From positions 91,652,862 through 91,716,861 of the forward strand of contig NC_065535.1 of assembly GCF_932294415.1 (NCBI RefSeq): a DNA stretch of 64,000 nucleotides, given 5' to 3'. Below, one piece after another: positions 22,822-59,539 of this stretch. The position numbers were made by a program, and so were the translations under genes. Below the pieces are notes generated by a model, which saw only the letters and a list, made by a program, of their open reading frames with translations, was not told the DNA's origin and did no database searches. Position 1 is the stretch's first letter; each line of letters starts with the position of its first letter. The stretch comes from Quercus robur (taxonomy: Eukaryota; Streptophyta; Magnoliopsida; Fagales; Fagaceae).

Positions 22822-25171
22822 ATTGATAACAGTGGAGGTGATTTTGTTTAGATTTTATAAACAAGTGTAAATTTGTAAACTATGTGAACTTTGGTGTTGT
22901 GTACTTTACATGGTGAAAAGTTCTTTTTAGATCAATTGAAATTTTCTTCTCTTTTTTTTATTTATTTATTATTTTTCTTTCATATTGCATGGTGTTTGAA
23001 CTGATAGATTAGACTAGGTTGATCAGAGGGAGAAAACTAGCGTGATTCAACTTCTGGTTGCACATAGAATGTTACTGCATTGTTTACTTATGAAAGGTGC
23101 TTAAACCATATAGCTCACAATCTTGGTTTTTTAATTTGATTGAATGATGTCTTCGTTCTGATATTTGAATGTCCAATTTTAAGATTCTGCCCATGCCAAA
23201 AAACTTTTCATTGCTTCTTTTTTTCCTTAGACAAAAGACAAATTTATTGATTAAAGAGAAGTTATTAAGCTGAGTTCCTATTTTCTTATAAGATAGCTAG
23301 TCACTAGGAGCAAGGAACTTCCAAATTACCTATCAAAAAAAAAGGAGCAAGGAACTTCCAAGTCTTAAGGCTTTCCATTTACCTGGATAGAGTATTTGGA
23401 GTATCAATTCCTTTATTTGGTGTCATAAAAGAGGAAATTTCTAATTTACATGTGGGATTTGTAGCTGGAATTTGGAGATCACAAAAATCAGCTCTAAATC
23501 CCAGCTAAATAGGTGCAATTTTACAATTTCAGGCAATGTTATGTGGGATTTTCTTTTTGCTGGGTGTGCCAATGAATCAGAAACCTACACACGCTATTTC
23601 TCTATTTCATGCTCATTTCTTTTATTTCCAGTTGCTCCTAGGACTCATTCACTCTTCAAGTTGGTAAGATATCACTCTCTATTCAAATTTCCATACTCAT
23701 CTCTTTCCCTCTCCCTTTTTCTACCTCTCAATCTGATACTGTATCTCTTTATATGGCTCTATGATCCATCAACTCCAATTTTTTAAGCTTTTGAATTCAT
23801 TTGGGTAGTGTGTTTTCCTCTATTTTTTGTTTTGTGGGCATTTGATTATGGGTCCGGTTAATTTATGCCCTTAGGGTATATATTAATCATCCATTTTAAG
23901 AAACTTTTTGTGGGAAATTGAAAATGCTGTCAAAAAAATTGTTCACTTTTTCATTTTCTCATAAAATTTTTCCTAAAATGGTTTTAGAATGTATGTCAAG
24001 AGGGCATATGTTAGTAAAACCCTTTGATTGTGGAAAAATTTAGTGACCCATTTATGAGTTCATCTAGTTATTCTGTGGAGATTTTTTAATGGCATTAAGC
24101 ACTGATTTGTTAAACTTCTGGGACGGATTTGACCAAAATAGAGTTGCATATATTATTACCAAAGTATAACTGCATGTATGATTGCTGGGTTAATTATGAT
24201 TTTATGTCAGTTTTACTTTGGATTTTTTATTTACTGGGTTATTTTCTATGTTTGCCTTTTAATCTGTTTACTCATCTCCTCTGTCATCCCTATGCTCATC
24301 TATCTATTTGTTCGTGAGTGCCCCTTAATTTGTTTGTCCTTAGTAAGTTTGGGTGCCGTAACCTTAGTCTCTTTGTGGTGCCGTGGCTTGGTTTGTTGGT
24401 TTTGCTTTAGAGAGAAATCTCTTTTAAGGTGCTGTACAGAAATTTTAGTGTTTTCTTTGCATCTATGATTGAGAGCTATTTGAGTGTCTTGGGGTTCTGG
24501 ATTTTGTGAGAGTGATTTTACACCATCTTTGTATCTCCAAATTTGTTAATGAAACTTTCTTCTCATCACCTCCCGTGGACTTAGCCAAAGGCCTAACCGC
24601 GTAAATTCTTAGTGATACTTGTTTATTTTTCTTTCAGCTTTCTTTGTTCCATTTGTTTGGAGATCTTTCTCAAGGGAATTATATTTTCACAATCAATCTT
24701 GATATGTAAGGTTCCATTTTAATAACATCAATCATGTGTCAAAACACATATCAATCCCAAAATGAGGCTTCTAATTTTTGGTGTGTGTGAGCTGCAAAAG
24801 GTTGGCTGTTTGGACAGATCACAGATGAGAAGAGATGCAACCAGCAAGACCAATAAATTTGGAGTTCTCACTTCTCTCATTAGATGACTCAGATCTGTTT
24901 TGGCCATAGTGTATAATCAAAGCAAGACAAAGGGGGTCATCGATTTGCTTAGATCTGAACTTTTGGCTCCAGGAAACTCATTACTTGTGGACAAGCTTGA
25001 TTCTAAAGAAACAGTAGAATGACCCTTCGTTATGTCTAAGAGGCCGTTCTTCAGTTCAGGTACAATAATGACAGGAAACTTTAGTGACCTTATCCTATAA
25101 TAGTATTGAAAATAAAGTCTAAACTTGCTTTTAATCTTGTCCAATAATTTTGAAATGAATGGCTTAAAATG
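22822..25171 (+). repeat. Duplicated block A, copy 1 (left part)
   Basis: From ATTGATAACAGTGGAGG onward this stretch is nearly identical to 48394-52469. The match continues across the Copia insertion at 33516-33775. Copy 2 has two extra insertions that copy 1 lacks. Copy 1 has small insertions of its own, such as one near 23130-23150. The block begins about 175 bp after the XRCC3 stop. No protein family is recognisable in it. Confidence 0.9.
24762..25022 (+). pseudogene. Unrecognised 86-codon ORF, copy 1, broken by a stop
   Basis: This is the counterpart of the open frame at 52090-52350, with the same length. It has TGA at codon 42 (24885-24887) where copy 2 has CAA. The predicted product (SELQKVGCLDRSQMRRD..) matches no family I recognise. 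It may be a fragment of a longer transcript's exon or a chance frame. The block may instead be a non-coding transcript. Confidence 0.3.
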
Positions 25172-26262
25172 TGTAAGGTTGAATTTAATCAACCATGTGT
25201 TGGCTTTATTCCGTGACAAATTTGCTTGTAATACAGCACTTAGAAACCCTATATTTAGGTGAGAATCATGTAAGGGTAGTGTGTGAGAGAATGTGAAGAA
25301 ATGCTCAAGACTGTGCAGTAAAGCAGGGACTCGCGGCTAGATCTCGCGGAAGGCTTGCGGCTTGCAAGCCGCCAAAAGTTGTACACATGCAGAGCATGCA
25401 GGGGAGCTGAACAATCATGCCAGCTGGAGCACTATAGGACAAAAATCCAGATTGGCCATTCAGTTAGCTCGCGACTTGAACTCGTGACTCAGTCAAGTCG
25501 CAAGGTCAAATCACCAGCCAACCCTGTTTTGGTAAAACTGACTCTTTGCATTCCATTCTCACACCAGTATAAATATCCCTCATTCCCACAAAATATGTTC
25601 AGAAAGAAAAACCCTAAGAGAGATTTCTTCAAAACACCCACCCAATTAGAAAGAGCTACTCATTCTTAGAGAGAAATCTTTGTAATCTCTTCTCATTCCC
25701 TCTCTCATTGTAATACCTATTGAGAGGAAATTTCTATCCAAACACTACCCACACCCATTTAGAGTGTTGAGTGTTTTTAGATTTTTGGGAAGCATTGGAA
25801 GATGCTAAGGATGGCGGATGCTATGGATTATAGCGGAATCCGGTAAGCTAGAAAAAAAAAAGGTTCGACACAACCTCATTGGAACAAGAAGCTTGGAGGG
25901 CTTAGGTACATCGGGTAGAATAGGCTTGGAGGGTCTATTGCTGTTCATGTATCCCAACTACATTTTCTAGTGGATTATTGATCGTTTAGAGGGCGGTGGA
26001 GATGTTTTACGCCGAGGGTTTCGGTTTCCTCTTCGATAACACATCGTGTGTTGTCCTTGTATTTGCATCTCTCTTCCCTTTATCTTTGCCTTTTATTTTT
26101 TGCTGTGGATGTGATTTTAATTAGCTTAGATTGTTTACCAATTCTGTATTAAACTTTTGTTCATGTTCTACACATTAATTGTTTGATATAAAGCTTGAAT
26201 TGGTAATTTGTAAATTGAGGGTCTAAACATTCAAGGGTGTTTTTACACTATTTGAACTTTCA
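25172..26262 (+). repeat. Left LTR of the gag-only Copia-like element
   Basis: 1091 bp, TG..CA, nearly identical to 32418-33515. It holds a TATA-like TATAAATA at 25568-25575 and, upstream of that, a cluster of CGCGGCT/CTCGCGACT motifs. The two LTRs differ by scattered substitutions and a small indel near 32841-32851. Confidence 0.88.
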
Positions 26263-26409
26263 ATTGGTATCAGAGCGGGTACACTTGTTTTGGTTTTATT
26301 ACCTAAGTGTGATCCTTGACCCCTTGTGTGTTTTGCCATAGATAATGCTTTATATGCTTCTATGGATATTGTTGATTGTAACATGCCATGCGTTTGAGAA
26401 AATGCCTCT

Positions 26410-27739
26410 ATGAGTGTTAATCCTCATAATTGTGATGACATGTGTTGAAGGCTAAAATTTCACAAGAAAGCCCATTCCATGAAAAGTAAAAAAGGCCCAA
26501 TTCAAGCAGCAAGAAGAATCAACATTAAGGCCCAATTTATGTTCAGATTTCCAGTAAAAAGATCATCAAAAAGTCCAGCAAAATCCAGTGAAAGAACTGG
26601 GCCGGGATACCCAGAGACTGCCAGAGGCCCGGGATCCTCAGGTAATGCAGCACAGTTACTGTGGGATTGAGACAGCTCAAGAGAGGTACCACGAAATACA
26701 AGAAATGAAGAATAGAGATATCCTTCTCAAGTATCCAGTGGTGCAGCAAAGAATCAGAAAATATAAAGCAAACATTTATGAACAAAGGAGCTGTACCACA
26801 AGGAACCAAGAATGAGAAAACCGTACGTAAAAACAACTGGAAGAGAACTTTCAACCCAGCAGTAAAAGATTCCAACTATTTGGGAATAATGACAGCAAGG
26901 AAATACAACCGCAGCTGAGTCTGAAAAGTGAGAAATCTTGAAGGAAGAGAGATTAAAGGCTAGTTGCCTAAGGACGCCCCGGAATGGAAAGTCAGCAAGT
27001 GACTTTTAGAGAAACAGTATTAAAAGATGAAAACCATGAGAAAAAAAGGAAGAGACCAGTCCTAAGAAAATGTCACAGCACGAACTCTGAGGGGCAAAAG
27101 AGAGAAATCACTAGTACCTCAGAGCCCTAGAAAACACGCTATAAAAGGAAGAGAAAACCCATGTTGAAGGGGGAGGATTTTCAGTAAGAAGGATATCATA
27201 ACAGAGCCATGAGAACTTTGTAAAATTTAAGAACAACAGAGGAACGTCTCCCGGTATCCCAGAAACAGCCACTATAGCATATATTTGTCTCCCGATATCC
27301 CAGAAACAGCCACTATAGCACATACTTGGATTCAAAAGGATTCAAACTTTGCAAGTCTTAGAGGCTTGAATAGCCATCAAAGTCTGTAATTTTTGAGCTT
27401 ATTTGAACCTTGTATCACGTCTTAGTGAGCACATTTGTAATCCACAATCAAGAAAAATAATGAAATATCTCATATTGATTTGAGGATTTCTAACAATTAC
27501 TTTGCATATTTATTTATCATATTATCTTCCTTTACTGCTTCTTGCTGCTCAATACATATATATTCTTGCTTGTAAAGCTAAGTCCCTGTCCAAGCAAAGT
27601 CCCTGTCCAAGCAAAGCCACTCAGACTTGAGTTCCAAATCCCACAAGTCTTGTGCAAAAGCACTAAGTCTGTGAGAATTGGGGCTAGGATCCTCGTGGCT
27701 GAATCATTCTCATGAAATTCATTTACATATATGTATATG

Positions 27740-27772
<33 letters not shown>

Positions 27773-29233
27773 CCTAATCTAAGAAACTAACAATTATTTG
27801 AAGATATGTGCATTATATAGTTGGTCTTGTGTAGGACCTATAGAGGTAAAAGGAAAGGACAAAACTCCATTGCATAACAAGCATGGAGAAAGATTGTATA
27901 GTGCAGAGAACCAGAGATTCTGGGTTCTTACAGGCCTAATACTCCCCGGGATCCCACGACAGTACGTTCCGGGATCCCACGACAGTACACCCGGGGTACC
28001 AAGTGAAGGAATTCTTTAAAATGTTTATACGATAAAAGATAATCCTTAAATATTCTACTTCAATCTCTTTCTCATTGTGAATATTATGAACATCTATTTT
28101 ACTTATTTTGTAAGAGTAAAGGGTTATTTTATGATATTAAAACACTTATAATGGTATTTTATTGCTTAGGAGGAATCGCATTTTTGCCTTGAGGAGATTT
28201 ATGTGACTTGCGCACAACTTGGTTCGTAATCAGCCCCCATTTAGCTGCGGTGAACCAAACCCAGTCCACCTAAATACAACTATTTGGCCCAGGATCCTTG
28301 GGCCTGTGTGCTAAAGAAAAAAAGCACTCTCACAACATGTTACTTGAATCTATGGGTGTTGTTGACAAACTCTTGAAGAAAGGAGCTAAGAAGTTTCAAA
28401 AGAATTTGAGCAAGTTAGTTTGTGAAAAGGATGATTTGATTGCTAAACTCAATGAATCTAACAAATTGGTTGAGAAATATAAGAATCTTGCTGAAATTTC
28501 TCTTGAAAAACTGAAAGAATTTGAATGTTTAAATAGGGACTTGGATGTTAAACTTGTTTTGTCTAACAAACTTGTTGATAATCTTAAATCTGAAAATGAA
28601 TCTTTTAAGATGCATGCCAAGTGTTTGATTGCTGAACCTGTTGTTAAAATGGAAGAAAATATATGTTGCAATCATGTTGTGGTACCCAATTTTGTGCCTA
28701 TTGTGTGTTCTACCTCAAAGGACAAATCGGTGTACATTCCTCCACACAAAATAAATCAAAAAGTGGAGAGAAAGGCTCTTAAGCCTAAGCCTCTGTTTAG
28801 GTCCCATTCTAGGGAATTGAGTGGATCTAAGTTTGTTCTTACTTGCCACCATTGCGGTGTGATCGGTCACATAAGACCCCAATGCCCCAAGTTAAAAAGA
28901 GAACAAACTTTTGTTGTTGGATCCCTTCCTAAAAACCCTAATGGACCTAAACACATTGTTTGTTACCATTGTGGTGCCTTTGGTCATCTAAGACCTCATT
29001 GCTCTAAATTTCAAGCTCTTAAGATAATCAAAAGAAAAGAGAAACTTGAGCTTTTTGGAAGTTGTGCTTTAAAAGTTAAACCGAATTGGATGGAAAATGG
29101 TAAGTTGTTGAAGAAAGTAGTTAATGCTCTTACCTCCTTGACTATGTGCATCTCCAGTTCTCATTCTTCCAACCCTCGTCTCACTTTTCTTAAGACACTC
29201 ATTCCAAACAATCGTTTTGTTTGGATGAGGTAG
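26410..29233 (+). pseudogene. Gag-like zinc-knuckle ORF split by a solo LTR
   Basis: The frame starts MSVNPHNCDDM at 26410-26442, is cut by the nested LTR, and resumes at 28340 (LLESMGVVDKLLKKG) to the stop at 29231-29233. The duplicated ACATG makes the join exact. The right part, 298 residues, has a lysine-rich coiled-coil-like stretch (KKFQKNLSKL.. to SENESF). Two CCHC zinc knuckles follow, CHHCGVIGHIRPQC and CYHCGAFGHLRPHC. Such knuckles bind element RNA during packaging. The first half of a normal Copia gag (UBN2-like) is missing upstream, where a TGA lies in frame at about 26395. No pol follows. It is not a host gene. Confidence 0.75.
26443..28334 (+). mobile_element. Solo LTR (1.9 kb) nested in the Copia-like element
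   Basis: It starts TGTTGAAGGC and ends CACTCTCACA, flanked by a perfect ACATG duplication (26438-26442 and 28335-28339). It is the same family as the LTRs at 35293-36974 and 42792-44462. It has about 190 extra bases near its 3' part (27985-28170), and one CCGGGATACCCAGAG unit where the others have two. It interrupts the gag-like ORF, so it came in after the Copia-like element. Part of the A-run/TA-rich stretch near 27740-27772 is a (TA)n microsatellite. Confidence 0.88.
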
Positions 29234-32200
29234 AGTTCCTATGGTTGAGCTTTTGCTCTTTTGGTCCTTGATCTAATTCTTTCGATCTTTGTTGGACCCT
29301 TCATGCATTAAATGTCATATCTTCATGCATTTTGTGCATCATGCATTTATTTGTATGCATTGTTTTATTTTTTATCTTACTTTTATATTTCAGTTTGTGT
29401 GAGTAAAAATCCAAAACCACATAAAAAGTGAAAAATTCAAAAAGTTTGATAGTATTTGTTTGAGCACATATCACATGTGAGTTTGGCCTTGTACTTTTGT
29501 ACAAATGGCTTTGTGCATTTTCGAGCTTAGCTTGTTATTTTTGCACTTATATCTTTGTGGGAAAAATCTTGACATCTTTGTATGATTGTTGTAAATCGAT
29601 CTTCACGCTTGTCATGAATGATTAGTCAATAGTCATGTTGGTTTTAATACATGTGTAGACTTGTGCTTATATCTCTTCTCACTCTTTTATTTTTATTGCT
29701 TAAAGAGCTCAATAAATGTAAATCTCAAAATGAAAAGAAATAATGAGCTGTAAAAACCGTCGCACATACTAGTATTCGACTAGGAAAAATGGAAAGCGAC
29801 TTATATGAAAATGTATGATGCCCCAAAAGCCAAAGGCTTGTTCATCAATTGTAAATATCACAAATTTCAGGCATCGATCTCAAAATGAGATGTTTTGATT
29901 CAAAATGATCAAATGTTATGAATTGTAAAGAAGCCAAATGAAAAGCTTCATCGTATGTAATCATTTTCTTGTGGGAGGTCATATATGTTCATTTCTATAA
30001 TTGAGATAGACCACTTGATTTAGTACTAGTTGTGTATGACTTGATTGAATTGATCATTGAAACTTCACTTTAGACTAAGGACTATTCCACATTTGATACA
30101 CACACACAACACACATGCCTAATGTTCAATGAATGTCTTATTCATTTGTTAGATTGTACTTGTCTAAATGTGATGTGTGTGTGCTCAATCTTATATAGAT
30201 TAATCCAAAAGATTTTTGATCATTTTATATGTTTTTGGAAGTGATTTTTATCACTCTTTATGTTCATGTTTAGTGTTTACTTTGTTTTTCATTGTTTAAA
30301 CATGTTCTATGTTGAAAAACAGGTGTCAAAGTTTTTCGCGACTCAGCTGGCGACTCGCCATTCGTGAAACCCCAGTCGTGAGTTCATCCAGAAGCTTTGG
30401 CGACTCATTCGCAGCTTGCTCGCGACTCGCGAAAATTTTCGTGACTGAACCTCACGACTCGCCCAGTCGCGAAACGCCCAGAAATAGCTTTTTAAAGGGC
30501 TTTTTATGGGAAACCTGTTTTAAACCTCTCACATCCTCTCTTAAACCCCTCTTTCACTATTTTTACATCTAAACCCAATCAATTTGAATGCTTTTTCATT
30601 CCATTAACATCTCTAAGGTAATTATAAACTCTTTTCATTGATTTTGATCCTTAGATTATGTTTTGGAGAGTTTTGTGCTATTGGTTGGGATTTTTATGGG
30701 TTGGGAAAACTTAATTTTTGTCAAATTTCTTCATGGGATTGGTTTCTTTTGTTGATTTACATTAGATGTTGGCCCCTTGTGGCAAAAATAACATGTATTA
30801 AGGGTGGATTTCATGATATTTATGCATTGTTTCACATTATTGTTCATAGTGTGCATGCTAGGTGTTTGATAAAATGCCTCTTAGACATTTTCTCGCTTGT
30901 TTGGACTCCGACGAGTACCAAACTTTAGGGTTTCTCATGTTTCCTCATTAAGAACATGTTTGGTTCATTGGTTGTGTATTTAACACACTTTGCTCCACAT
31001 GTGCATTTTTCATGCATTGGTCATGCATTGCACTTAGCCACCTCTTGCACACACATTTGCTACCCTTGTCATGTATTGGTCTAGACCTTGCTTCTTCATC
31101 CTAGCATGTCATGTCTACCTTATGCTTTGTAGCATTTTACATTGTCTTAGGTTTGAGCTTCATTTTCTCATTCTTCTCGTACCCCTCATGCATCATTAGC
31201 ATTGTTCGTACCTTCATCTCTTGCCTTCGTTTCTTCTTGACCCTTTGTCTATTCCTGACAAAAAGGGGGAGAGTATACTCTAGAGAGTATACCGGAGTAT
31301 TTTGTCATTTCTGTATGACTCCTGTGCACATCCTTAGGGGGAGAAATTCTATTTCTCATGCACATTTGTAGGGGGAGAGATATTCCATAGGAGAGATGCA
31401 TATACCAAGGGGGAGAAGACATTGAGATAATAAGAAAACTTTGTTTTGTTTGTTTCTCTTTATATTTGTTTTCTTGTATTGCATCATGTTTGTGTTTTGG
31501 ACACGCATATATCCCTATGCTATTGTGCTCCATTGAATGCATGTTCGGATGATCATTTGCTTTGCTATGTGATCATTGTAGTCATTTCTATATGACTGTT
31601 TTGGTGTGTGATCAAGTTGTTCACATGTTTCACATCATGTTTACTTGATCGCAATTTACTTGTTACATTATACTTGTCCTTTTATTACTTGCTTTACCTT
31701 GAGGGTCTAATGTGTTTTGTGCAAGTGTTTCAGGTTACAAGTATATATGTTCCAAGTCCATCACAGCTTCTCATCACTTTGAAGGGGAGAAACTTTAAAC
31801 ATTTTTAGTTTATATTGTTTAAGTTTATATGCAGTATTTTGTGGTTTGTACCCATGTTACTTTTGTAAGCTTTTAGGGTTTATATTTGTAGGCTTTATGG
31901 TCTATACTATGCTTTTATGCAGCCTTTTATACTTTGTTAAATCAGTACTGTTAACTAAATGTCATGCATTTTCTTGTTAAGTACTGTCACTCTTGTGCCC
32001 TTGTAAGATTGTTCCTAGATGCATATACTTAGTGTATTGTGCATTGGTTGAGTGTTGGGCATACAAGTGACTTGCATTGAGCTTGTTAGCATGTTTGTTC
32101 AAGTGTTCATTCCAAGTGTGAATAAGCATTGTGGTCACTACCTTGTAGTGATTGCTTGGTTGATCAAGTCATGGTTTGTTTCTTAACTTCATCTTTGCTT

Positions 32201-32417
32201 GATCACATATTGCCTGTTTCATATGCATTTTATGCTTTTCTGCATACAATGATCATGGTGTATTGTTGTGTTTAAGGAGTTTCATGTTCATATGATTCAA
32301 GTGCTTCACAACTTCTAGATTTAGGTGTGAATGAGTTTTGCCATTGTTCCCAAACTCACGTTTAAGTCTAGAGTTTGTTTTAGGGTGTTTTGTCACGGAA
32401 TAGCCAAAGGGGGAGAT
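29234..32417 (+). other. Non-coding internal region of the gag-only element
   Basis: About 3.2 kb without a protein match in any frame. It contains a cluster of CGACTCGC-type motifs at 30335-30475, also found in the LTR, and several GGGGGAGA purine tracts (31265-31410) like those common before Copia 3' LTRs. A polypurine tract precedes the right LTR. The region may hold packaging or regulatory signals (inference). Confidence 0.6.
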
Positions 32418-33515
32418 TGTAAGGTTGAATTTAATCAACCATGTGTTGGCTTTATTCCGTGACAAATTTGCTTGTAATACAGCACTTAGAAACCCTGTAT
32501 TTAGGTGGGAATCATGTAAGGGTAGTGTGTGAGAGAATGTGAAGAAATGCTCAAGACTGTGCAGTGAAGCAAGGACTCGCGGTTGGATCTCATAAGAGGC
32601 TCGCGGCTTGTAAGCCGCCAAAAGTTGCACACGCGCAGAGCATGCAGGGGAGCTAAACAGTCATGCTAGCTGGAGCACTACAGGACAAAAATCTAGACTG
32701 GCCATTCAGTTAGCTCGTGGCTTGAACTCGCGACTCAGTTAAGTCGCGAGGTCAAGTTGCCAGCCAACCCTGTTTTGGTAAAACTGACTCTTTGCATTCC
32801 ATTCTCACACCAGTATAAATACCCCTCATTCCCACAAAATATGTGTGGCTATTCAGAAAGAAAAACTCTAAAAGAGGTTTCTTCAAAACACCCACCCAAT
32901 TAGAGAGAGCTACTCATTCTTAGAGAGAAATCTTTGTAGTCTCTTCTCATTCCCTCTCTCATTGTAATACCTATTGAGAGAAGATTTCTATCCAAACACT
33001 ACCCACACCCATTTAGAGTGTTGAGTGTTTTTGGAGCTTTAGGAAGCATTGGAAGATGCCAAGGATGGTGGATGCTATGGATTATGTCGGAATCCGGTAA
33101 GCTAGAAAAAAAAAAAGGTTCGGCGCAACCTCGTTGGAGTAAGAAGCTTGAAGGGCTTAGATACATCAGGTAGATTAGGTTTGGAGGGTCTATTGCTGTT
33201 CATGTATCCCAACAACATTTTCTAGTGGATTATTGACCGCTTGGAGGGCGGTGGAGAGGTTTTACACCAAAGGCTTCGGTTTCCTCTTCGATAACACAGT
33301 GTGTTGTCCTTGTGTTTGCATCTCTCTTCCCTTTATCTTTGCCTTTTATTTTCTGCTGTAGATGTGATTTTAATTGGCTTAGATTGTTTACCAATTCTAT
33401 ATTAAGCTTTTGTTCATGTTCCGCACATTAATTGTTTGATATAAAGCTTGAATTGGTAATTTGTAAATTGGGGGTCTAAATGTTCAAGGGTGTTTTTACA
33501 CTATTTGAACTCTCA
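32418..33515 (+). repeat. Right LTR of the gag-only Copia-like element
   Basis: 1098 bp, TG..CA, followed by the AAATG target duplication and then by the interrupted continuation of block A (CATACAGTGATATG..). Confidence 0.88.
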
Positions 33516-33775
33516 AAATGCATACAGTGATATGAAATTTAGTAAGCTTAAGTGCACTGGTAATAAATAGCAGGGTTAGTACATCAACTATGTTGAGTCA
33601 ACAATAGTTCTTTACAATAATCTGATTGTCCAGAATCTAAATTAAGTTGAAAAATTTTAATCACAGTATATGAAATCAATGATATAAATGTGTTTAAGCA
33701 TGCTGTTTCATAAATGCATGGCAGTGTCCTAGATGTTGCTTTTAAGCATGCTGTTTCTTCTAGGTATTGTGTGTG
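33516..33775 (+). repeat. Duplicated block A, copy 1 (right part)
   Basis: The continuation of block A after the Copia-like insertion. It matches about 52470-52722 almost base for base, up to the AAGCATGCTGTTTC..TAGGTATTG stretch, after which the copies diverge. Confidence 0.85.
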
Positions 33776-33784
33776 CAGATTGTT

Positions 33785-35069: not shown

Positions 35070-35174
35070 AACAAGGTTGTCAAAATTAGAATCTTACATA
35101 GGATCGTGAGAAGTAAGTGAGATAGTGGATCATAGGATTGGATCGTAGATTGTAAGATCTTACATATTTTCGGG

Positions 35175-45758: not shown

Positions 45759-45789
<31 letters not shown>

Positions 45790-45864: not shown

Positions 45865-46703
45865 AACCCAACCAGGTGATTTTGAGCAGTTTTCCAAAAA
45901 CTGGCACAACTTGGCTTAAGGCTTTGATCTTTGCCATTATGACACATTCCAATGTTAGTGACTCTACTAACCCTTTGCTCACAAGATTATCACATGAGTG
46001 TGTACCCTTCATTGAGATTGATTTTCGCTCAAACTCACCAAAATTGAATTTAGATGTTCCACTTGTGGCTACACACATATCCTATACTTCCTTACCAAAA
46101 TCTATTATAAATTCTGGTTGTAAAATTGTTTACCTATGCAGGGATCCAAAGGATGTACTTGTGTCTGCATGGCACTATATTCGCAAGGTACTAGTTAATG
46201 CGGAAGTCTCAGCCATGGAAGATATCTCTTTGGAGGATGCATTTGAGTTCTTTTGTCAAGGATTATCTTTTTGTGGACCATATTGGGATCATTTATTAGG
46301 GTACTGGAGAGCAAGCTCTGAATCACCAGAGAGGATATTGTTTTTAAAGTATGAAGATTTGAAGAATGAAACTGGATATTGGATAAAGAAAATTGCCCAA
46401 TTCATAGGTTACCCTTTCTCTTTCGAGGAAGAAGATAAAGGTGTAGTGCAAAAGATTATAGACCTATGCAATTTTGAGAACATGTCTAGTTTGGAGGTGA
46501 GTAAAAATGGAATGATATGGTTGGAGAAAAATGGAGTCAATACAATGGAGATTAAAAACAATACATTTTTTAGCAAAGGTAAGGTTGGAGACTGGAAAAA
46601 TCGTCTCACACATGAAATGGCAATGCAACTCGATCAAATATTCAAGCAAAAGCTAACTGGTTCGGGTTTGACATTCAACGTCCCACTCCCACTTAGTAGA
46701 TGA

Positions 46704-47154
46704 GCAATGCCACTTCCATCACAATCCGGCGACTAAATATATTCTAGCACTGTGGCTGTTTATATTTTGTTTTCATTATTTGAAGGATATGTATGGCACC
46801 ATTTAAAAAAAAAAAATTTTATTTTTCATTTGTAGGTTGTACGGATAATTTAGTCACTTGCAGGTGACTACATTATTAATATATTTTCTAGTGTAAGAAT
46901 TGAGACTTGAATTTTATTTTAATAAATTGATAGTTATAGCACGAAGGAAAGATTTGAACCCTAGATGTCATGAACAAATTAAGAGATACCAATCAATCAA
47001 TTAAGATTTGCGCGCTGTTTGTTTCGGTATTAACGTTTTCTATAAAATTGGTCATTTTCCAAATAACATTTTCTAGAAAACGATTTCATTTTCCAATCTT
47101 TGGTAATGATCTTGAAAATTAGCTTGAGAATGTTTTCTGATGTTTAGTATGCAG

Positions 47155-47185
<31 letters not shown>

Positions 47186-47427
47186 TTTATTTCTTGTATA
47201 ATTTAAAACATGTGTATTATGTAAACCAACTCATGTAAACAATATAAATAAAAAACCAAGAATGAATTTGATTTTCGTATTAAAATTTCGACAATAGATA
47301 CAATCAAAATTAGTTGTTCGATTTTTATGATCTCTACCACTCATTTTGCTCATATATATGGACAGTAATGTGTGTACACACACACACACACACACACACA
47401 TATTTATATATGAACCATACATACATA
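46704..47427. other. 3' flank of sulfotransferase copy 1
   Basis: To about 47000 this matches the 3' flank of copy 2 (55873-56180), so the duplication covers it. Then come a 24-base T-run at 47157-47180 and an AT-rich stretch with a (CA)n microsatellite at 47376-47400. No gene is visible. Confidence 0.7.
46934..47012 (-). mobile_element. Diverged minus-strand SINE
   Basis: GATTTGAACCC is a reverse-complement box B, followed by AAGAGATACCAATCAATCAATTAAG, the usual far end of this plant SINE type in reverse. The homologous sequence lies at about 56118-56194 and 56332-56345, where a second SINE splits it. Confidence 0.5.
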
Positions 47428-47596
47428 CGGAGCCAGCTCTATACTAAAAGCAAAGATTAGGGTCACCTAAGGGCCCAAGTAGAAAAAAGGCCCCCAAATT
47501 TTAATCAATAGTGTTATTTTTTATTATTATAATGGTTTAATTAAGCCCAAATATTAGTCAATATATAAAATAATATCTTTTTATCAAATGAAAATA

Positions 47597-47635
<39 letters not shown>

Positions 47636-48142
47636 GCTATGTTTACGACATTTTTCACAATACTTTCACAATAAATCCTAAGTGGTAAGTTGTTACAAGC
47701 TATTATCAATGACAAAATTTTAATTTCAATGATGAATTCAAATTAGAATCAGTTACAGCTTAACACCTAGAATTTGTTGTAAAAATATTGTGAATGTAGC
47801 ACTTTTCAAAAAAAAAAAAAAAAAAGCAATACACAAAAAAATTCGCAATATTTTTCATAAGTTGAGTTGGCAAAATTTTACTAGTTCTTCTCTAAGTCCT
47901 TTACTAACATCACTTTTTTACTTACTACTATCAATCTGTCACATCAACATGTGTGAAACGTTTTGTCAAATTTTTTGTGTATAGACTTTGTAAAAAAATT
48001 TACATGGTTCATGTTAATTAGTAGTAATTTTGCATCTAAAACAAGATAATAAAGTTTAATTTTAAAAAATCATATTTAAATATATAAAATGCCTCAATTT
48101 TAGTTTTCACCTCAAGTACCCAAATACATTATGCCACCCCTG
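47428..48142. mobile_element. Probable decayed hAT element
   Basis: The left end CGGAGCCAGCTC and right end GCCACCCCTG are weakly inverted (about half matching). The flanks share CATACATA (47420-47427 and 48143-48150), an 8-bp duplication of low complexity. The interior holds GGGCCC-containing sequence as in other hAT ends and a (GA)n run near 47600-47632, with no transposase. The short low-complexity duplication keeps confidence moderate. Confidence 0.45.
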
Positions 48143-49405
48143 CATACATAGCACATAAAAAGCAATGGGTCTCATCCTTATATAGGTATCTATATAACGT
48201 ATAATGTATCTGCATAATATATCATCACTGCGCACACAGTATCTGTATAATGTATCTGCCAACAAATGCAATTCCCCTAAACAATTATCATTCATTATAT
48301 AACAATATTATTAATTTATCATAAAGATTGTCTCATGTAAAAGCAATTTAGAGCAATATAAGAACTATGTTTAAAATTTTAGTCTTTTACTTCATTGATA
48401 ACAGTGGAGGTGATTTTGTTTAGATTTTATAAACAAGTGTAAATTTGTAAACTATGTGAACTTTGGTGTTGTGTACTTTACATGGTGAAAAGTTCCTTTT
48501 AGATCAATTGAAATTTTCTTCTCTTATTTATTTATTATTTTTCTTTCATATTGCATGGTGTTTGAACTGATAGATTAGACTAGGTTGATTAGAGGGAGAA
48601 AACTAGCATGATTCAACTTCTGGTTGCACATAGAATGTTACTGCATTGTTTACTTATGAAAGGTGCTTAAACCATATAGCTCACAATCTTCGTTCTGATA
48701 TTTGAATGTCCAATTTTAAGATTCTGCCCATGCCAAAAAACTTTTCATTGCTTCTTTTTTTTCTTAGACAAAAGACAGAAATTTATTGATTAAAGAAAAG
48801 TTATTAAGCTGAGTTCCTATTTTCTTATAAGATAGGTAGTCACCAGGAGCAAGGAACTTCCAAGTCTTAAGACTTGCCATTTACCAGGATAGAGTATTTG
48901 GAGTATCAATTCCTTTATTTGGTGTCATAAAAGAGGAAATTTCTAATTTACATGTGGGATTTGTAGCTGGAATTTGGAGATCTCAAAAATCAACTCTAAA
49001 TCCCAGCTAAATAGGTGCAATTTTACAATTTCAGGCAATGTTATGTGGGATTTTCTTTTTGCCGGGTGTGCCAATGAATCAGAAACCTACACACGCTATT
49101 TCTCTATTTCATGCTCATTTCTTTTATTTCCAGTTGTTCCTAGGACTCATTCACTCTTCAAGTTCAAGGTAAGATATCACTCTCTTTTCAAATGTCCATA
49201 CTCATCTCTTTCCCTCTCCCTTTTTCTACCTCTTTGTATGGCTCTATTCAAATGTCCATACTCATCTCTGATACCGTATCTCTTTGTATGGCTCTATGAT
49301 CCATCAACTCCAATTTTTTAAGCTTTTGAATTCGTTTGGGTAGTGTGTTTTCCTCCATTTTTTGTTTGTGGGTATTTGAGTATGGGTCCGGTCAATTTAT
49401 GTCCC

Positions 49406-50420
49406 TATGCCAAAATAGGTAACTATACATAACTTTCCAACTATATAGTTAGTAGTCAATGTTTGTAAACTATATTTTTTACTAGCATCTCAAGTGTTTT
49501 AGACTCAATTTTGGCTATAAATCGAGTCTTTAAGACTCGATTTCCATCGTCTGATGTGGCATTTTTTTCATGTGGCAAATGCTTGAAAATCGAGTCTTTA
49601 AGACTCGATTTATAAGAAAACCCTATTACATGTAAAAATCCTGCATCTTCTTCTCATCTTGTCATCAGAACAAAAAGAGAGAGGAAAAAAAAACAGAAAC
49701 AGAATTCAGAAACAGAACACCGGCGCCGCCCTCAGCTAAACCGCGCAGCCCAGGCCAGCGCAACCCAAGCCGCGCGAGCCTAGGAGGCCGCGCGAAGCCT
49801 AAGCCACGCGAGCCCAGGAGGCCGCACGAAGCCCAGGCTGCGCGAGCTCTTCTCATCAGAACAAAAAGAGAGGAGAAAAAAAAAAAAAAACCCTGAAACA
49901 GAACACCGGCGCCGCCCTCAGGTACACCGCGCAACCCAGGCCGCGCGAGCCCAGGCTACACTGGTGAGGTGAGCATCTGATTCCGGTGAGGTGAGCTTTA
50001 GATTCTTTCTCCCTCTCTCTAATCTGGCCGCCCGCGAGCCCACACAGGCCGCGTCGGTGAGGTGAGCATCTGATTCCGGTGAGGTGAGCTTTAGATTCTT
50101 TTTCCCTCTCTCTGATCTGATTGAATTTTTTTTTGGGTATTTCGGCTTGAACATGGGCGACTTGAAACTTAAATTTTTTTAAAACTTTTTTGGTTTATAA
50201 ATCGAGTCTTAAAGACTCGATTTCCAAGTACTCAACACGTGGAAAAATATGCCACATCAGAGATGAGTAAACCATGAAAATCGAGTCATTAAAACTCGAT
50301 TTATAGGCCAAAATCGAGCCTCTTATGCTCGAGATGCTAGTAAAAAATATAGTTTGCAAACATTGACTACTAACTATATAGTTGGAAAGTTATGTCTAGT
50401 TACCCATTTTTGCTGGCATA
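49406..50420. mobile_element. Mutator-like element with long inverted ends and a GC-rich core
   Basis: The ends are inverted copies about 90 bp long: TATGCCA.. on the left and ..TGGCATA on the right, each with ACTATATAGTTAGTAGTCAA and a TTTTTTACTAGCATCTC-type part. Inside come hairpin-like ATCGAGTCTTTAAGACTCGAT motifs. The 49690-50060 core is much more GC-rich than its surroundings (GCGCGAGCCCAGG-like, GGCGCCGCC), with two doubled modules. That is the look of a Pack-MULE-type element carrying host DNA, but I recognise no gene. No target duplication is clear, unlike the element at 50787. Confidence 0.7.
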
Positions 50421-50786
50421 CACTAATCATCCATTTTAGGAAACTTTTGGTGAGAAATTGAAAAAACCGTTAAAAAAGTTACTAACTTTTTCATTTTCTC
50501 ATAAAATTTTTCCTAAAATAGTTTTAAAATGTATGTCATGAGGGCATATGTTAGTAAAACCCTTTGATTGTGGAAAAATTCAGTGACCCATTTACGAGTT
50601 CATCAGTTATTGTGTGGAGATTTTTTCATGGCATTAAGCACTGATTTGTTAAACTTCTGGGACGGATTTGACCAAAACAGAGTTGCATATATTATTACCA
50701 AAGTATAACTGCATGTATGATTGCTGGGTTAATTATGATTTTATGTCAGTTTTACTTTGGATTTTTTATTTACTGGGTTATTTTCT

Positions 50787-51641
50787 GGAGATTCTAGCCT
50801 TTTGCCCTTAATTTTTAAAAAATTTAGCAATATGCCCCTATTTTGAAACTATATAGGGATATGCCCCTGTTTCGATACTCGATTACCTTAAAATCGAGTT
50901 TCAATGAAATACTCGATTCGTAAAAAATCGAGTTATATCGAATAAAAGTAAAAAAAATAAAAAATAAAAAAATAAAAAAAAATAAAAAAAAAGAGCATGG
51001 AACTCGATTTTAAGGAAGTCGAGTTCCAAAACGCCGCTATAGGGCTTAAAAACGTCACTATAGGGCTTAAAAACGCCACTATAGGGCCCCTTGAAGCTGG
51101 TATGGGACTTATAAAAAATTTTTGCAGGAAAACGCTGCTATAGGGCTCTAAAACGTCACTATATGGCACCCAGAACAGGGCGATTACACTTAATAAAAAA
51201 TTTTTGCAAGAAAACGCCGCTATAGGGTCTTAAAACGTCACTATAGGTCTTAAAAACGCCACTATAGGGCATCATGAATATGGGCCAATTACACATATAA
51301 AAAATTTGCAGGAAAACGCCGCTATAGGGCCTTAAAACGTCACTATAGGGCTTAGAAACGCCACTATATAGCTCCCTCAATATGGGGCAATCGCACTTAT
51401 AAAATTTTTTTTTGTATGGAACTCGATTTCCTGAAACTCGAGTTCCATGGAATTTTTTTTTTAATATTTTTTTTTAAGTTTGATCGTGCATAACTTGATT
51501 TTCTACAAATCGAGTATTTAATTGAACTCGATTTTAGGATAATCGAGTATCAAAACAGGGGCACGCTCCTATATAGTTTGCAAACAGGGGCATATTGCCA
51601 ATTTTTTTTTTTTAAATTAAGGGTAAAATGCCAGAATCTCC
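50787..51641. mobile_element. Mutator-like element with perfect 10-bp target duplication
   Basis: The ends are inverted: GGAGATTCTAGCCTTTTGCC on the left and a diverged copy ending AGAATCTCCG on the right, about 70 bp or more. GTTATTTTCT flanks it on both sides (50777-50786 and 51642-51651). The single empty site is at 24238-24247 in copy 1. Inside are many AACTCGATTTT/AAATCGAGTT pairs and a higher-order array. There is no transposase, so it is non-autonomous. Confidence 0.92.
51028..51370 (+). repeat. Tandem array of AACG(C/T)C(G/A)CTATAGGGC units
   Basis: About eleven units near 20 bp (AACGCCGCTATAGGGC, AACGTCACTATAGGGC, AACGCCACTATAGGGC) are grouped in triplets separated by TTATAAAAAATTTTTGCAGG. 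This gives a higher-order period of about 90-100 bp repeated four times. Minus-strand translation yields repeated PYSGVFL-like text, which is probably a by-product. Confidence 0.85.
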
Positions 51642-52089
51642 GTTATTTTCTATGTTTGCCTTTTAATCAGTTTGCTCATCTCCTTTGTCATCCCTATGCT
51701 CATCGATCTATTTGTTCGTGAGTGCCCCTTAATTTGTTTGTCCTTAGTAAGTTTGGGTGCTGTAACCTTAGATCTCTTTATGGTGCCGTGGCTTGGTTTG
51801 TTGGTTTTGCTTTAGAGAGAAATCTATTTTAAGGTGCTGTACAGAAATTTTAGTGTTTTCTTTGCATCTATGATTGAGAGCTATTTGAGTGTCTTGGGGT
51901 TCTGGACTTAGGCCAAAGGCCTAACTGTGTAAATTCTTAGTGATGCTTGTTTATTTTTCTTTCAGCTTTCTTAGTTCCATTTGTCTGGAGATCTTTCTCA
52001 AGGGCATTATATTTTCACAATCAATCTGGATAGGTAAGGTTCCGTTTTAATAACATCAATCATGTGTCAAAACATACATCAATCCCAAA

Positions 52090-52350
52090 ATGAGGCTTCC
52101 ACTTTTTGCTGTGAGTGAGCTGCAAAAGGTTGGCTGTTTGGACAGATCACAGATGAGAAGAGATGCAACCAGCAAGACCAATAAATTTGGAGTTCTCACT
52201 TCTCTCATTAGACAACTCAGATCTGTTTCGGCCATGGTGTATAATCAACGCAAGACAAAGGGGGTCACCGATCTGCTCAGATCTGAACTTTTGGCTCCAG
52301 GAAACACATTACTTGTGGACAAGCTTGATTCTAAAGAAACAGTAGAATGA
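52090..52350 (+). CDS. Unrecognised 86-residue ORF, copy 2 (may be non-coding)
   Basis: Open from ATG to TGA. The product is basic and polar (SELQKVGCLDRSQMRRD.., LIRQLRSVSAMVYNQRKTKG.., ending KLDSKETVE), with no signal peptide, membrane segment or known motif. The sister copy at 24762-25022 has the same length but one internal TGA and otherwise few changes. I do not recognise a family. It could be an exon of a gene whose other exons I cannot identify, or a chance frame. Confidence 0.3.
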   Translation: MRLPLFAVSELQKVGCLDRSQMRRDATSKTNKFGVLTSLIRQLRSVSAMVYNQRKTKGVTDLLRSELLAPGNTLLVDKLDSKETVE

Positions 52351-52923
52351 CCCTTCGTTATGTACAATAATGACAGGAAACTTTAGTGACCTTATCCAAT
52401 AATAGTATTGAAAATGACGTCTAAACTTGCTCTTAATCTTGTCCAATAATTTTGAAAAGAATGGCTTAAAATGCAGACAACGATATGAAATTTAGTAAGC
52501 TTAAGTGCACTGGTAATTAAATAGAAGGGTTAGTACATTTACTATGTTGAGTCAACAAAGGTTCTTTACAATAATCTGATTGTCCAGAATCTAAATTAAG
52601 TTGAAAATTTTTAATCAAAGTATATGAAATCAATGATATAAATGTGTTTAAGCATGCTGTTTATTAAATGAATGGCAGTGTCCTAGATGTTGCTTTTAAG
52701 CATGCTGTTTCTCTAGGTATTGGACTTGGTGAGTATTTGGATCCGCGTTTGCGTTTCCATGATCACAATTTCAGCTTTTTTTTTCTTTTTTCTTTTTTTC
52801 CAGCATGTGAATAGTAATATCACATGAATTCATTATGCAAGATTATTAATGGGTTCCACAACACTTTTCACACATTTAAAAATTATTTAGTTACAGTTTT
52901 CCGTTTCAGTAAAAATATGTTAA

Positions 52924-53157
52924 CGGACGCCTAAGAGAGGGAGCTCTTGGTGGCCAAGTAAAATCGTGAAGAAGAAATAATGGAGTTGTCATTGTCTTGG
53001 CGGATGACCTAACTGGGTGGACCTGGATCTTAAATTTTGGGGACGCCTAAGAGAGGGAGCTCTTGGTGGCCAAGTAAAATCGTGAAGAAGAAATAATGGA
53101 GTTATCATTGTCTTGGCGGACGACCTAACTGGGTGGACTTGGATCTTAAATTTTGGG
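52924..53157 (+). repeat. 117-bp tandem duplication (two units)
   Basis: GGACGCCTAAGAGAGGGAGC starts the first unit at 52924 and the second about 116-117 bases later. Only a handful of bases differ (GTTGTCATTG/GTTATCATTG, GCGGATGAC/GCGGACGAC, GGACCTGG/GGACTTGG), so the duplication is recent. Confidence 0.88.
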
Positions 53158-54402
53158 GCCGGGAAATTAAGAACTTGATTTGGACTCTACTTTGCAATTT
53201 AACTATTTATAATGCTGTTCTTTTTATTCAGTTTTCACTTAACTCTCATCTCTCTCTCTCACCGTCACCGGCCCACTCGAAGCTCAACGTCACCGGCCTA
53301 CGCCCTTGATCCACTCCGTCGAACCAAGCCGTTGACCCACTCCGCCGACCCACGCCGCAGACCCATCTCACTCACTCTCGAAGTCTCTGCTCTGACCTTG
53401 TCGTCACAGACCCACGACAAGAGCTCCTCCTCCTTGCAGTCGGTAAGTCTCTCAAACTCTCACTGTCTCTACCTCACCTCTCGCTTGCCTCGATTTTGAA
53501 TCGGAATCATTGTGGGTATGTGATATATTGTTGTAGAACGTGATATATTGCTGAGAATGGGTCTGTGACTTCTTCTTTTTTGTTGGCTGGTTGGGTCTGA
53601 GGTATATTGTTGCAGTGTTATATAATTTATATATTTATAGTTCATGAAATTTGTTATTGAATGATATACAATAATATTTGTAGTGATCGTGGTTGTGATT
53701 TGTATTTTGTTGGCTGCTTGGCTACTGTTTTTTTTTTTTTTTTTTTTTTTTGATTGGTGGTGGTTGTGGTTGTGGTTGTGGTTGTGGCTGATGGTGGAGG
53801 TGGTTGTGGTTGGTTGATAAAGTTTGTGGTGGAAGATTTTATTATTATTCTAATCAGATATTTGTATTATTTTAATCAAATAGTTAAAAATATAGATTCA
53901 TTGATGTTGGATGCAAAGAGGTAAAATAGATGAAGTGATTTTTGTAGATGTTAAATAACTAAAATTTAGCTCTATTATTGTGGATACTCTTAATATTGGT
54001 GGTGTTAAAAGTTATATTGGTATTTTTAGCACCACTTTTAGTACCACTAATATTTGAAAAGCATGCTGCAATTTTTTTTAGCTTCTTACTACAGTGCACA
54101 TCTATCTATAGATGTGCGTTGTAGCAAAAAGCTAAAGCAAAAAATTTTATTTTATTATACTTCCATATATTTTCTCCCTTTTACACGTTCACCATTTTTT
54201 TTTTTTTTTTGCCTTTTTCTCTCTTTCACGCTATTTTAATGACTCTCAGCTCTCTTCAGTTTTAGATTTGTATGTTGGGTTGTTTTATGGGTTTTGCAAA
54301 TTGGAATTTTGTCAATTTTTTGATTTTTTTTTTTTTTTGCAAATTTGCATGTTAGTGTGTTCAAATCTGAAGAAAAATAGCAGGTCAAACCCACTACAAT
54401 AG

Positions 54403-54678
54403 TGGTTGTGATGGTTGTTTATTATAGTTGATATATTATTTTATTGTGTTATTTACATTATTTTATTGTGTTGAAAACTAAAATTAAACTACTGATGCTG
54501 GGTGTTTTGTAAAGTGAAAAGGTAAAATAAATAACTTCAATAATGGTTGTGATGGTTGTTTATTGTAGTAGATATATTATTTTATTGTGTTGTTTATATT
54601 ATTTTATTATGTTGAAAGCTAAAATAAAACTACTGATGCTAGGTGTTCTGTAAAGTGAGAAGGTAAAATCAATAAAGT
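54403..54678 (+). repeat. 139-bp tandem duplication (two units)
   Basis: Each unit runs from ATGGTTGTTTATT.. to GTAAAGTGA(A/G)AAGGTAAAAT. The two are about 90% alike by eye. It is AT-rich, with GATATATTATTTTATTGTGT in both. Confidence 0.8.
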
Positions 54679-54813
54679 AACTTTTTGTGATGCAAAATAG
54701 CTAAATTTATGACTCCACCAATGTGGATGCTCTTATAATGGTGTTTTTTTCATTCAGTTTTCACTTCAGGTATACATTTCCAATATATTTCGAGCTAGCT
54801 ATATTTTCAACCA

Positions 54814-55872
54814 ATGGAATCCTCCTCTTCCAAAATGAGCCATGCTCCAGAAAGTAATGAGAGAGAAGAGTATCAATTTGATTCAGAAATCGATAACAAA
54901 CTCAAAGAGATCATGTCAAGCGTCCCAAGAAAAAAGGGTGTTGCCTTGACTGATCTTTACCAATATGAAGGTTTTTGGTACTCTTTAGCCTGGTTAGAAG
55001 GGATGTTACGGGCTGAAAAACATTTCAAGCCTCAACCCAACCAAGTGATCTTGAGCAGTTTTCCAAAATCTGGCACAACTTGGCTTAAGGCTTTGATCTT
55101 TGCCATTATGACACAATCCCAAGTTAGTGAGCCTACTAACCCTTTACTCACAAGATTATCACATGAGTGTGTACCCTTCATTGAGACTGATTTTCGCTCA
55201 AACTCACCAAAATTGAATCTAGATGTTCCACTTATGGCTACACACATGTCCTATACTTCCTTACCAAAATCTATTATAGATTCTGGTTGTAAAATTATTT
55301 ACATAGGCAGGGATCCAAAGGATGTACTTGTGTCTACATGGCACTTTATTCACAAGGTACTAGTTAATAAGGAATTCCCAACCATGAGAGATATTCCTTT
55401 GGAGGATGCATTTGAGTTCTTTTGTCAAGGATTATCTTTTTGTGGACCATATTGGGATCATTTATTAGGGTACTGGAGAGCAAGCTCTGAATCACCAGAG
55501 ATGATATTGTTTTTAAAGTATGAAGATTTGAAGAATGAAACTGGATATTGGATAAAGAAAATTGCCCAATTCATAGGTTACCCTTTCTCTTTAGAGGAAG
55601 AAGATAAAGGTGTGGTGCAAAAGATTATAGACCTATGCAATTTTGAGAACATGTCTAGTTTGGAGGTGAGTAAAAATGGAATGATATGGTTGGAGAAAAA
55701 TGGAGTCAATACGATGGAGATTAAAAACAATACATTTTTTAGGAAAGGTAAGGTTGGAGACTGGAAGAATCATCTCACACATGAAATGGCAATGCAACTC
55801 GATCAAATATTCGAGCAAAAGCTAACTGGTTCGGGTTTGACATTCAACGTCCCACCCCCATCTAGTAGATGA
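54814..55872 (+). CDS. Cytosolic sulfotransferase (SOT family), intact
   Basis: A single 352-codon exon, a normal length for plant soluble sulfotransferases. The PAPS 5'-phosphosulfate loop PKSGTTW is at 84-90. SHECVPF with His117 is at 116-122, probably the catalytic histidine. The 3'-phosphate-binding stretch YIGRDPKDVLVS is at 163-174, with Arg166 and Ser174. The C-terminal PAPS motif RKGKVGDWKN is at 310-319. The family transfers sulfonate from PAPS to hydroxyls of flavonoids, hydroxyjasmonate, brassinosteroids, glucosinolate precursors or others in the cytosol; the acceptor cannot be told here. The leader shares TTCAGGTATACATTTC with copy 1. The protein is the only working-looking copy of the tandem pair. 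The start is the first ATG of the frame, and copy 1 uses the same one. Confidence 0.92.
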   Translation: MESSSSKMSHAPESNEREEYQFDSEIDNKLKEIMSSVPRKKGVALTDLYQYEGFWYSLAWLEGMLRAEKHFKPQPNQVILSSFPKSGTTWLKALIFAIMTQSQVSEPTNPLLTRLSHECVPFIETDFRSNSPKLNLDVPLMATHMSYTSLPKSIIDSGCKIIYIGRDPKDVLVSTWHFIHKVLVNKEFPTMRDIPLEDAFEFFCQGLSFCGPYWDHLLGYWRASSESPEMILFLKYEDLKNETGYWIKKIAQFIGYPFSLEEEDKGVVQKIIDLCNFENMSSLEVSKNGMIWLEKNGVNTMEIKNNTFFRKGKVGDWKNHLTHEMAMQLDQIFEQKLTGSGLTFNVPPPSSR

Positions 55873-56643
55873 GCAACGCCACTTCCATCACAATCCGACG
55901 ACTAAATATATTCTAGCACTGTGGCTGTTTCTATTTTGTTTTCATTATTTGAAGGATATGTATGGCACCATTTTTAAAAAAAAAATTATTTTTCATTTGT
56001 AGGTTGTATGGATAATTTAGTCACTTGCAGGTGACTACATTATTAATATATTTTCTAGTGTCTTGTAAGAGTTGAAACTTGATTTTATTTTATTTTATTT
56101 TAATTTAATAAATTGATAGTTACAACACGAAGGAAGGATTTGAACCTTAGATATGATGACCACACTAAGAGATATCAACTAATTAAGCTACAAGCCAAAG
56201 GCCTTGTAGCTGAATTGACATCTCCCTATGCACAAAGTGCTTGGGGGTCTACGGGGAAAAGGGTTCAAGTTGCAAGGTTAGCAACATATTGTAATTATCT
56301 CTCAAAAAAAAAAAAACTAATTAAGCTACAAGGCTCTTATTCTCTTAACTTGACACTTAAAATATTAATGTCAAAATTATTATGAAACACTGAAACCTCA
56401 ATGTCTTTCGTTTGACAACTATACTATGTATAATAATTAAATGTTGCATTTAACTTTACAAAACTTCTATTGCACCACATCACTTATTTTTCCACAAATT
56501 CTCATCTTTTTTATAATATTAAATTTGTATAATATATAATAATAAAGATTGTAACTAATTTTGGTTTCTTGACCTTTCTTCTCTATTATTATTCAAAATT
56601 CCAATCCTTCTTGCTCATTACTTCTTCTTCCCCATAATTTTTC
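55873..56643. other. 3' flank of sulfotransferase copy 2
   Basis: The first 300 bases match the 3' flank of copy 1. The nested SINE pair follows, and then AT-rich DNA to the left target duplication of the Mutator-like MITE. Confidence 0.6.
56195..56313 (+). mobile_element. SINE with perfect 18-bp target duplication, nested in an older SINE
   Basis: The body, from GGCCTTGTAGCTGAATTGAC to box B GGGTTCAAGTTGC, ends in CTCAAAAAAAAA. It is flanked by the identical 18-mer AACTAATTAAGCTACAAG at 56177-56194 and 56314-56331. It splits an older minus-strand SINE whose far end resumes as AAGCTACAAGGCTCTT. It is absent from the matching place of copy 1, so it entered after the duplication. Confidence 0.9.
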
Positions 56644-59536: not shown

Positions 59537-59539
59537 TTA

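Follow-up and report, generated by a model that had tools for sequence, protein, structure and literature searches.

A probable tandem duplication of a plant sulfotransferase gene together with its upstream DNA, hidden by later insertions

The 64,000-nucleotide stretch analyzed here (the window; C2:91652862-91716861, the contig measuring 98 Mb and the genome 785.7 Mb over 42 contigs) carries two sulfotransferase copies, S1 and S2, each preceded by a copy of the same non-coding block, A1 and A2. This alternation raises the question of whether A and the sulfotransferase were copied together, in one tandem duplication as an earlier note on this DNA had proposed, or separately. We consider it probable (roughly 0.84) that one tandem duplication made A2 and S2 together, a proposal that the order and orientation of the copies, their exclusivity in the genome, their neutral divergence, and a promoter link between A and S all support. 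By domain and closest relatives, S1 and S2 are assigned to the plant cytosolic sulfotransferases (SOT). The expansion of plant sulfotransferases (SULT) via tandem duplication is described in PMC12506393. The event proposed here is of an ordinary kind; its history is unusually readable. We took the source to be a plant from the plant-type cytosolic sulfotransferases, a Rad51-family gene read as XRCC3, and the long terminal repeat (LTR) elements.

Two copies in alternating order and the promoter-like right end of A

Self-BLAST of the window yields, on a single strand throughout, an XRCC3-like gene followed by A1, S1, A2, and S2. Six pieces of A1 (22822-23324, 23343-23871, 23875-24247, 24238-24501, 24576-25171, and 33512-33769) have their counterparts within 48394-52722, and two pieces of S1 (44473-44732 and 45861-46992) have theirs within 54783-56178; the eight matches lie on the plus strand in the same order with E <= 1e-102, and the alternation claimed by the earlier note is thus recovered. 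Identity in these pieces is 90.6-97.0% for A and 92.3-93.1% for S, a close homology for which "nearly identical" was slightly generous. Once indels and inserts are removed, A1 and A2 mismatch in 97 of 2401 aligned columns (4.0%), and S1 and S2 in 80 of 1372 (5.8%).

Both pairs are exclusive within the genome. No further full-length A was found among the matches listed in whole-genome searches with A, in each of which the best 40 candidates were scored. S1 and S2 are mutual closest relatives, with 92-93% identity against 80-82% over at least 900 bp for the next sulfotransferases; one S1 piece aligns with another sulfotransferase for 650 bp at 84.8%. Contigs C3, C5, C38, C39, and C41 carry the remaining listed SOT matches, which are mostly grouped.

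The right end of A resembles promoters just upstream of SOT paralogs, which ties A to S. Two stretches of unit 2 were compared with the 400-bp upstream regions of 14 further SOT loci (L023-L036), those among the retrieved loci whose 5' end was usable, and 400 equal-length windows from elsewhere in the window served as controls. The stretch from A (52366-52488) beats all 400 controls at three loci (L025, L031, and L034), while its score is reached by 3/400 controls in L023, 1/400 in L027, and 9-17/400 in L024, L026, L029, and L030. The second stretch, on the TATA side (53181-53243), beats 400/400 controls at 7 of the 14 upstream regions. In six loci (L023, L024, L026, L027, L029, and L030) the matches to both stretches lie side by side, no more than a few bases apart, immediately upstream of the gene, and BLAST pairs the A stretch with L023 at E=1e-8 and the TATA side with L029 at E=3e-9. 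The high-scoring controls in L023 probably reflect a copy of the family of LTR1, an LTR element discussed below, upstream of that gene.

In unit 2 these stretches are about 0.7 kb apart, with the tail of A between them, a tail that was not seen in the compact paralog promoters aligned. As it is present in both units, the tail is older than the duplication, and its insertion between the two promoter parts would likewise predate that event. The simplest reading of these alignments is that in the right end of A we see the distal promoter of the sulfotransferase itself, with A and S forming one ancestral segment. The earlier note had thus correctly seen two copies of A, but what it treated as a block beside the sulfotransferase appears to be largely the gene's own 5' flank.

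Two other identities of A were rejected. As a gene it fails in that none of three scanned frames (98-124 aa) has a Pfam match up to E=5 and the frame at 52054-52347 of A2 meets a stop codon at its A1 counterpart. A transposable element might be suggested by ATTG at both ends of both copies and by dispersed pieces within A, namely a patch resembling a miniature inverted-repeat transposable element (MITE) and a piece at ~51903-52055 in A2 with 71-86% genome matches; yet neither terminal inverted repeats (TIRs) nor LTRs were seen by eye at its boundaries, no further full-length copy was found, and its right end is promoter-like. The window gave no match to Rfam at the gathering threshold and none in a tRNA scan.

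Divergence of the copies and the rival readings

The earlier note had expected the synonymous divergence of the sulfotransferases to agree with the divergence of A. On few events, the two appear to agree: the synonymous divergence (Ks) of S is 0.050 (10 changes at 205 synonymous sites) against 97/2401 in A (Fisher p=0.58; p=0.33 with the MITE-like patch masked), and transversions concur (38/2401 in A versus 25/1372 in S, p=0.60). Uninterrupted identity extends over at most 153 columns in A (permutation p=0.13) and 105 in S (p=0.12), lengths that are not exceptional, and gene conversion between the units is not supported.

A number of observations nevertheless weigh against a single event. Counted over all substitutions, the divergences of A and S differ (4.0% versus 5.8%, p=0.013), as they do after masking of the MITE-like patch in A and a patch resembling a short interspersed nuclear element (SINE) in S (3.5% versus 5.1%, p=0.027); moreover, permutation shows an uneven spread of substitutions in each of A (p=0.0002), S (p=0.012), and LTR1 (p=0.0012). 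By the same measure LTR1, which is absent from A2, looks older than the duplication (77/1089, or 7.1%, versus 177/3773 for A and S together, p=0.0025). The spacers at 33770-35292 and 52723-54772 have no match to each other better than E=0.2, and past the common end of S the best match is one of 73 bp at 71%, at non-corresponding places. With corresponding homology lacking in both, no duplication junction is visible, which leaves the event unproved by a junction, though not excluded thereby, and on that alone the joint copying of A and S would be doubtful. Both A copies also start and end with ATTG, readable as a 4-bp direct repeat, and a single assembly underlies the whole reading. As to the promoter link, several of the 14 SOT loci share an array with others and do not count as independent; outside the seven loci where all controls are beaten, the TATA-side score is reached by 9/400 controls in L023 and by 41-195/400 in the other six, with no TATA-side signal in L034. 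The A stretch gives no clear signal in 5/14 (L028, L032, L033, L035, and L036; 57-239/400 controls reach its score), and in L025 and L031 its best match (-339 to -226) is separated from that of the TATA side.

Part of the unevenness arises because the two repeat-derived patches diverge more, with 33/277 differences against 144/3496 elsewhere (p=3e-7). The MITE-like patch has dozens of dispersed matches at 77-86%, along with reverse-strand matches at the same places, among the best 40 of 1204 candidates. In our judgment the all-substitution gap between A and S, slight as it is and unevenly distributed over both blocks, does not amount to the clearly different divergence that the earlier note had named as a refutation.

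The absence of corresponding homology between the spacers would fit a rival history in which A and S were copied in separate events; A2 might then be, for example, templated filler or else a moved copy, its alternation with S arising by coincidence. The ATTG ends, the differing all-substitution divergences, the left edge of A2, which adjoins a dispersed-element piece at a common ATT, and a further copy of the left 383 bp of A with its adjoining gene flank on contig C39 would also suit such a history. We regard it as quite unlikely given the resemblance of the right end of A to SOT paralog promoters, the agreeing neutral divergences, an order and strand that are those of one tandem copy, and the lack of TIRs or LTRs by eye at the boundaries of A. 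About as unlikely, in our estimate, is a false haplotypic duplication, in which the assembler would have set two alleles of one locus in tandem. Few-per-cent differences and insertions can also separate haplotypes; nevertheless, a Ks of 0.05 appears high for alleles, the neighboring XRCC3-like gene occurs once, and the window contains no N anywhere and lies within its 98-Mb contig, points that all speak against this without being decisive. A single tandem duplication fits the shared order and strand, the exclusivity of A and the S pair in the genome, and their neutral divergence.

Insertions and a proposed order of events

Under the single-duplication reading, the ancestral segment would have comprised the DNA 3' of the XRCC3-like gene, the sulfotransferase promoter, and an intronless SOT gene, and would have been copied once in tandem. 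Unit 1 would afterwards have been hit by LTR1 in its promoter, by LTR2 (accompanied by loss of sequence at the element's right edge), and by a hAT element in the coding region; unit 2, in turn, would have received two TIR elements in A2 and, separating the TATA side from the start of S2, a 1.5-kb insert. Deletions at the element edges may then have removed the remaining common spacer and the duplication junction, with S1 dying while the frame of S2 stays intact. The original breakpoints were not found, and probably lie under or beyond the present element edges. These insertions account for the lost colinearity of the units (Table 1): unit 1 has swollen, as the earlier note supposed, and measures about 25.6 kb with the two LTR elements and the hAT element, but unit 2 is swollen too. 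LTR1, the solo LTR nested in it, the hAT element, and the second TIR element are inserts with target-site duplications (TSDs).

Table 1. Features of the duplicated region, in window coordinates
Feature	Position	Strand	Remarks
Rad51-family gene, 299 aa	21746-22645	+	Pfam Rad51 2.6e-33; left neighbor of unit 1
A1 left part	22823-25171	+	DNA 3' of XRCC3-like gene; ends in sulfotransferase promoter motif 25064-25171
MITE-like dispersed repeat in A1, also in A2	23850-24026		18/170 columns differ
LTR1	25172-33515	+	LTRs 25172-26262 and 32418-33515; TSD AAATG (5 bp); TG...CA ends
Solo LTR, LTR2 family	26443-28334	+	Nested in LTR1; TSD ACATG
A1 tail	33516-33769	+	Common to A2; 76% relative at C3:8114184
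Spacer 1	33770-35292		Dispersed repeats 34375-34573, ~34686-35021, 35172-35290
LTR2	35293-44460 (right end approximate)	+	Right LTR without last 12-15 bp
S1 pseudogene	44463-47005	+	Coding pieces 44504-44692 and 45873-46703
hAT element in S1, 1134 bp	44731-45864	-	Perfect 12-bp TIR CAGGGCCGGCTC; 8-bp TSD AACCCAAC
Dispersed-element piece between S1 and A2	47009-48393		Relatives match to about 47011-48399; meets A2 at common ATT
A2	48394-52722	+	Second A copy, broken by two TIR elements; promoter motif 52366-52488
TIR element 1 in A2	49407-50414		Inverted arms ~200 bp; dispersed relatives
TIR element 2 in A2	50787-51641		10-bp TSD GTTATTTTCT; empty site in A1
TATA-side promoter part	53181-53240	+	Found in unit 2 only (spacer 2)
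1.5-kb insertion between promoter and S2	53241-54766		15-bp direct repeats ATTCAGTTTTCACTT starting 53226 and 54752
S2 locus	54773-56186	+	Intact 352-aa sulfotransferase ORF (open reading frame) 54814-55872

LTR1 sits in the promoter part of A1, and A2 preserves the empty site. Its primer-binding site and purine tract were recognized by eye, its open reading frame at 28298-29233 encodes a gag-type zinc knuckle, and we take it to be Copia-like from a primer-site motif. The two LTRs differ by 72 transitions and 5 transversions; by transversions, LTR1 (5/1089) is younger than A and S (63/3773, p=0.0018), as is LTR2 (6/1666, p=1.7e-5), and the empty site in A2 agrees with this younger age. A raised transition rate is reported for wheat elements in PMC2996936, and the ratio of 72:5 in LTR1 is far above the 2.8 for elements in that wheat comparison. 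The case is therefore a cautionary one for dating by raw LTR divergence, by which LTR1 seems older than the duplication even as the empty site points to a later insertion. LTR1-family sequence occurs at three sulfotransferase loci, namely in the S1 promoter stretch (25172-33515), immediately upstream of a gene at C3:22.396 Mb, and inside a gene at C3:22.306 Mb; the coordinates at the two further loci are L045 6191-7908 and L046 4914-6034.

No TSD was found for LTR2, which we presume to be Gypsy-like from motifs alone; its frame at 39368-39751, the sole LTR2 frame scanned, has no Pfam match. Internally it bears tandem arrays of ~140-bp repeats (37645-38341) and ~80-bp repeats (40446-40980). The repeats in spacer 1 were located with the best 40 of 1831 candidates scored. 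The element within S1 displays hAT-type TSD, TIRs, and domain together, with a Dimer_Tnp_hAT match (5.2e-17) on the minus strand, and its empty site survives in the other unit.

TIR element 1 of unit 2 has no clear TSD, while TIR element 2 is, presumably, MULE-like (Mutator-like), an assignment based on TSD length. The left edge of the 1.5-kb insertion coincides with the onset of dispersed matches. The earlier note also held that the sulfotransferase copies have matching flanks; this stands to about 47000/56186, where homology 3' of S ends, but the spacers before the genes lack such a match and beyond S there are only weak ones. No counterpart of the dispersed-element piece at 47009-48393 occurs 3' of S2 or within the 30 kb that follow on the right. 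Three relatives of the piece run on differently beyond the A2 edge, and it hence looks truncated there; for the same reason we dropped the idea that the duplication junction lies here as a short microhomology with an adjoining insert flanked by ATT as a 3-bp TSD.

Comparison with known systems places the locus within plain plant genome evolution. Like other plant SOT/SULT tandem duplications, it presents a tandem pair whose frame is read without introns; it differs in that the copies are ~7.8 kb apart, unit 1 is greatly extended, and the promoter is split, all of which hide the duplication. Its LTR elements, the nested solo LTR flanked by a separate TSD, and the transition-rich LTRs do not differ in kind from nested plant LTR-retrotransposons. 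Among the titles listed in a literature search none points to this locus, which does not show absence. What the locus adds is a readable case in which insertions and apparent edge deletions conceal a tandem duplication from methods based on adjacency or length, and in which the promoters of paralogs can link a non-coding block to its gene.

The sulfotransferase genes and their neighbors

S1 is a pseudogene, with a one-base frameshift near 44692 in addition to the hAT insertion of 1134 bp; its 3' piece still matches Sulfotransfer_1 (2.7e-71). LTR1 interrupts its promoter stretch, the gene is preceded by LTR2, and spacer 1 holds no counterpart of the TATA side. Disruption of SOT copies by transposon or by frameshift is described in PMC12506393 and PMC4199319. 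S2 retains a Sulfotransfer_1 domain at residues 75-341 (1.5e-71), and its closest solved relatives (n=49) are headed by Cytosolic sulfotransferase 18 (1.7e-85) and 16. We take both of these entries to be of Arabidopsis origin.

Despite the intact frame of S2, there is no sign of purifying selection on it in either the S1-S2 comparison or the branch counts, the latter based on few changes. Non-synonymous divergence (Ka) is 0.054, about equal to Ks. When the 52 coding differences were assigned to branches by simple majority rule against 10 paralogs, leaving out 19 ambiguous ones, 14 changes fell on the S2 branch (12 non-synonymous and 2 synonymous) and 19 on the S1 branch (14 and 5, respectively), at a ratio of non-synonymous to synonymous sites of ~4:1. 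It seems unlikely that S2 was kept because the 1.5-kb insertion supplied new regulation, with its coding changes representing changed function rather than decay.

The gene to the left of A1, which we read as XRCC3, has a single other match in the genome, 157 bp of 3' flank on contig C39. There, a 541-bp stretch (C39:6612570-6613110; L042 2571-3111) copies window positions 22666-23206 at 97.8%, crossing unbroken from the 3' flank of the gene into A and taking in its left 383 bp; the junction between the gene and A1 thus exists twice in the genome. A2, unlike A1 and the C39 copy, starts beside a dispersed-element piece, with which it has ATT in common. Over 348 ungapped columns of 22824-23206, private changes number 0 in A1, 3 in A2, and 4 in the C39 copy; these few changes favor unit 1 as the original position, and say nothing on whether the C39 copy arose before or after the duplication.

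A variant of the single tandem duplication bears on this same left edge, in that a larger segment including the XRCC3-like gene might have been copied, and the second gene copy then deleted with the end of the 47009-48393 element. As A2 starts where a longer element breaks off, its left edge need not be a breakpoint; however, no gene remnant other than the C39 piece was found in the genome and the data do not require the larger segment, so that we consider this variant rather unlikely.

As a separate observation, the 541-bp stretch on C39 lies between open frames which, read by eye, we take to be parts of a PIF/Harbinger-like transposon, and it might accordingly be a captured host fragment. 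To the right of S2, a SINE-like insertion at 56177-56332 with 18-bp direct repeats AACTAATTAAGCTACAAG adjoins a SINE-like stretch of dispersed occurrence in the 3' end common to S1 and S2. Further on, a frame at 58586-58805 was recognized by eye as the start of a histone H4 gene; it has no Pfam match up to E=5, stops where 30 bp are duplicated in tandem, and resembles a pseudogene. Finally, direct repeats at 59041-59537 and 69048-69544 (the latter outside the window, L047) are 90% identical, and may be the LTRs of an element whose reverse-transcriptase and RNase H domains lie at the window's right end.

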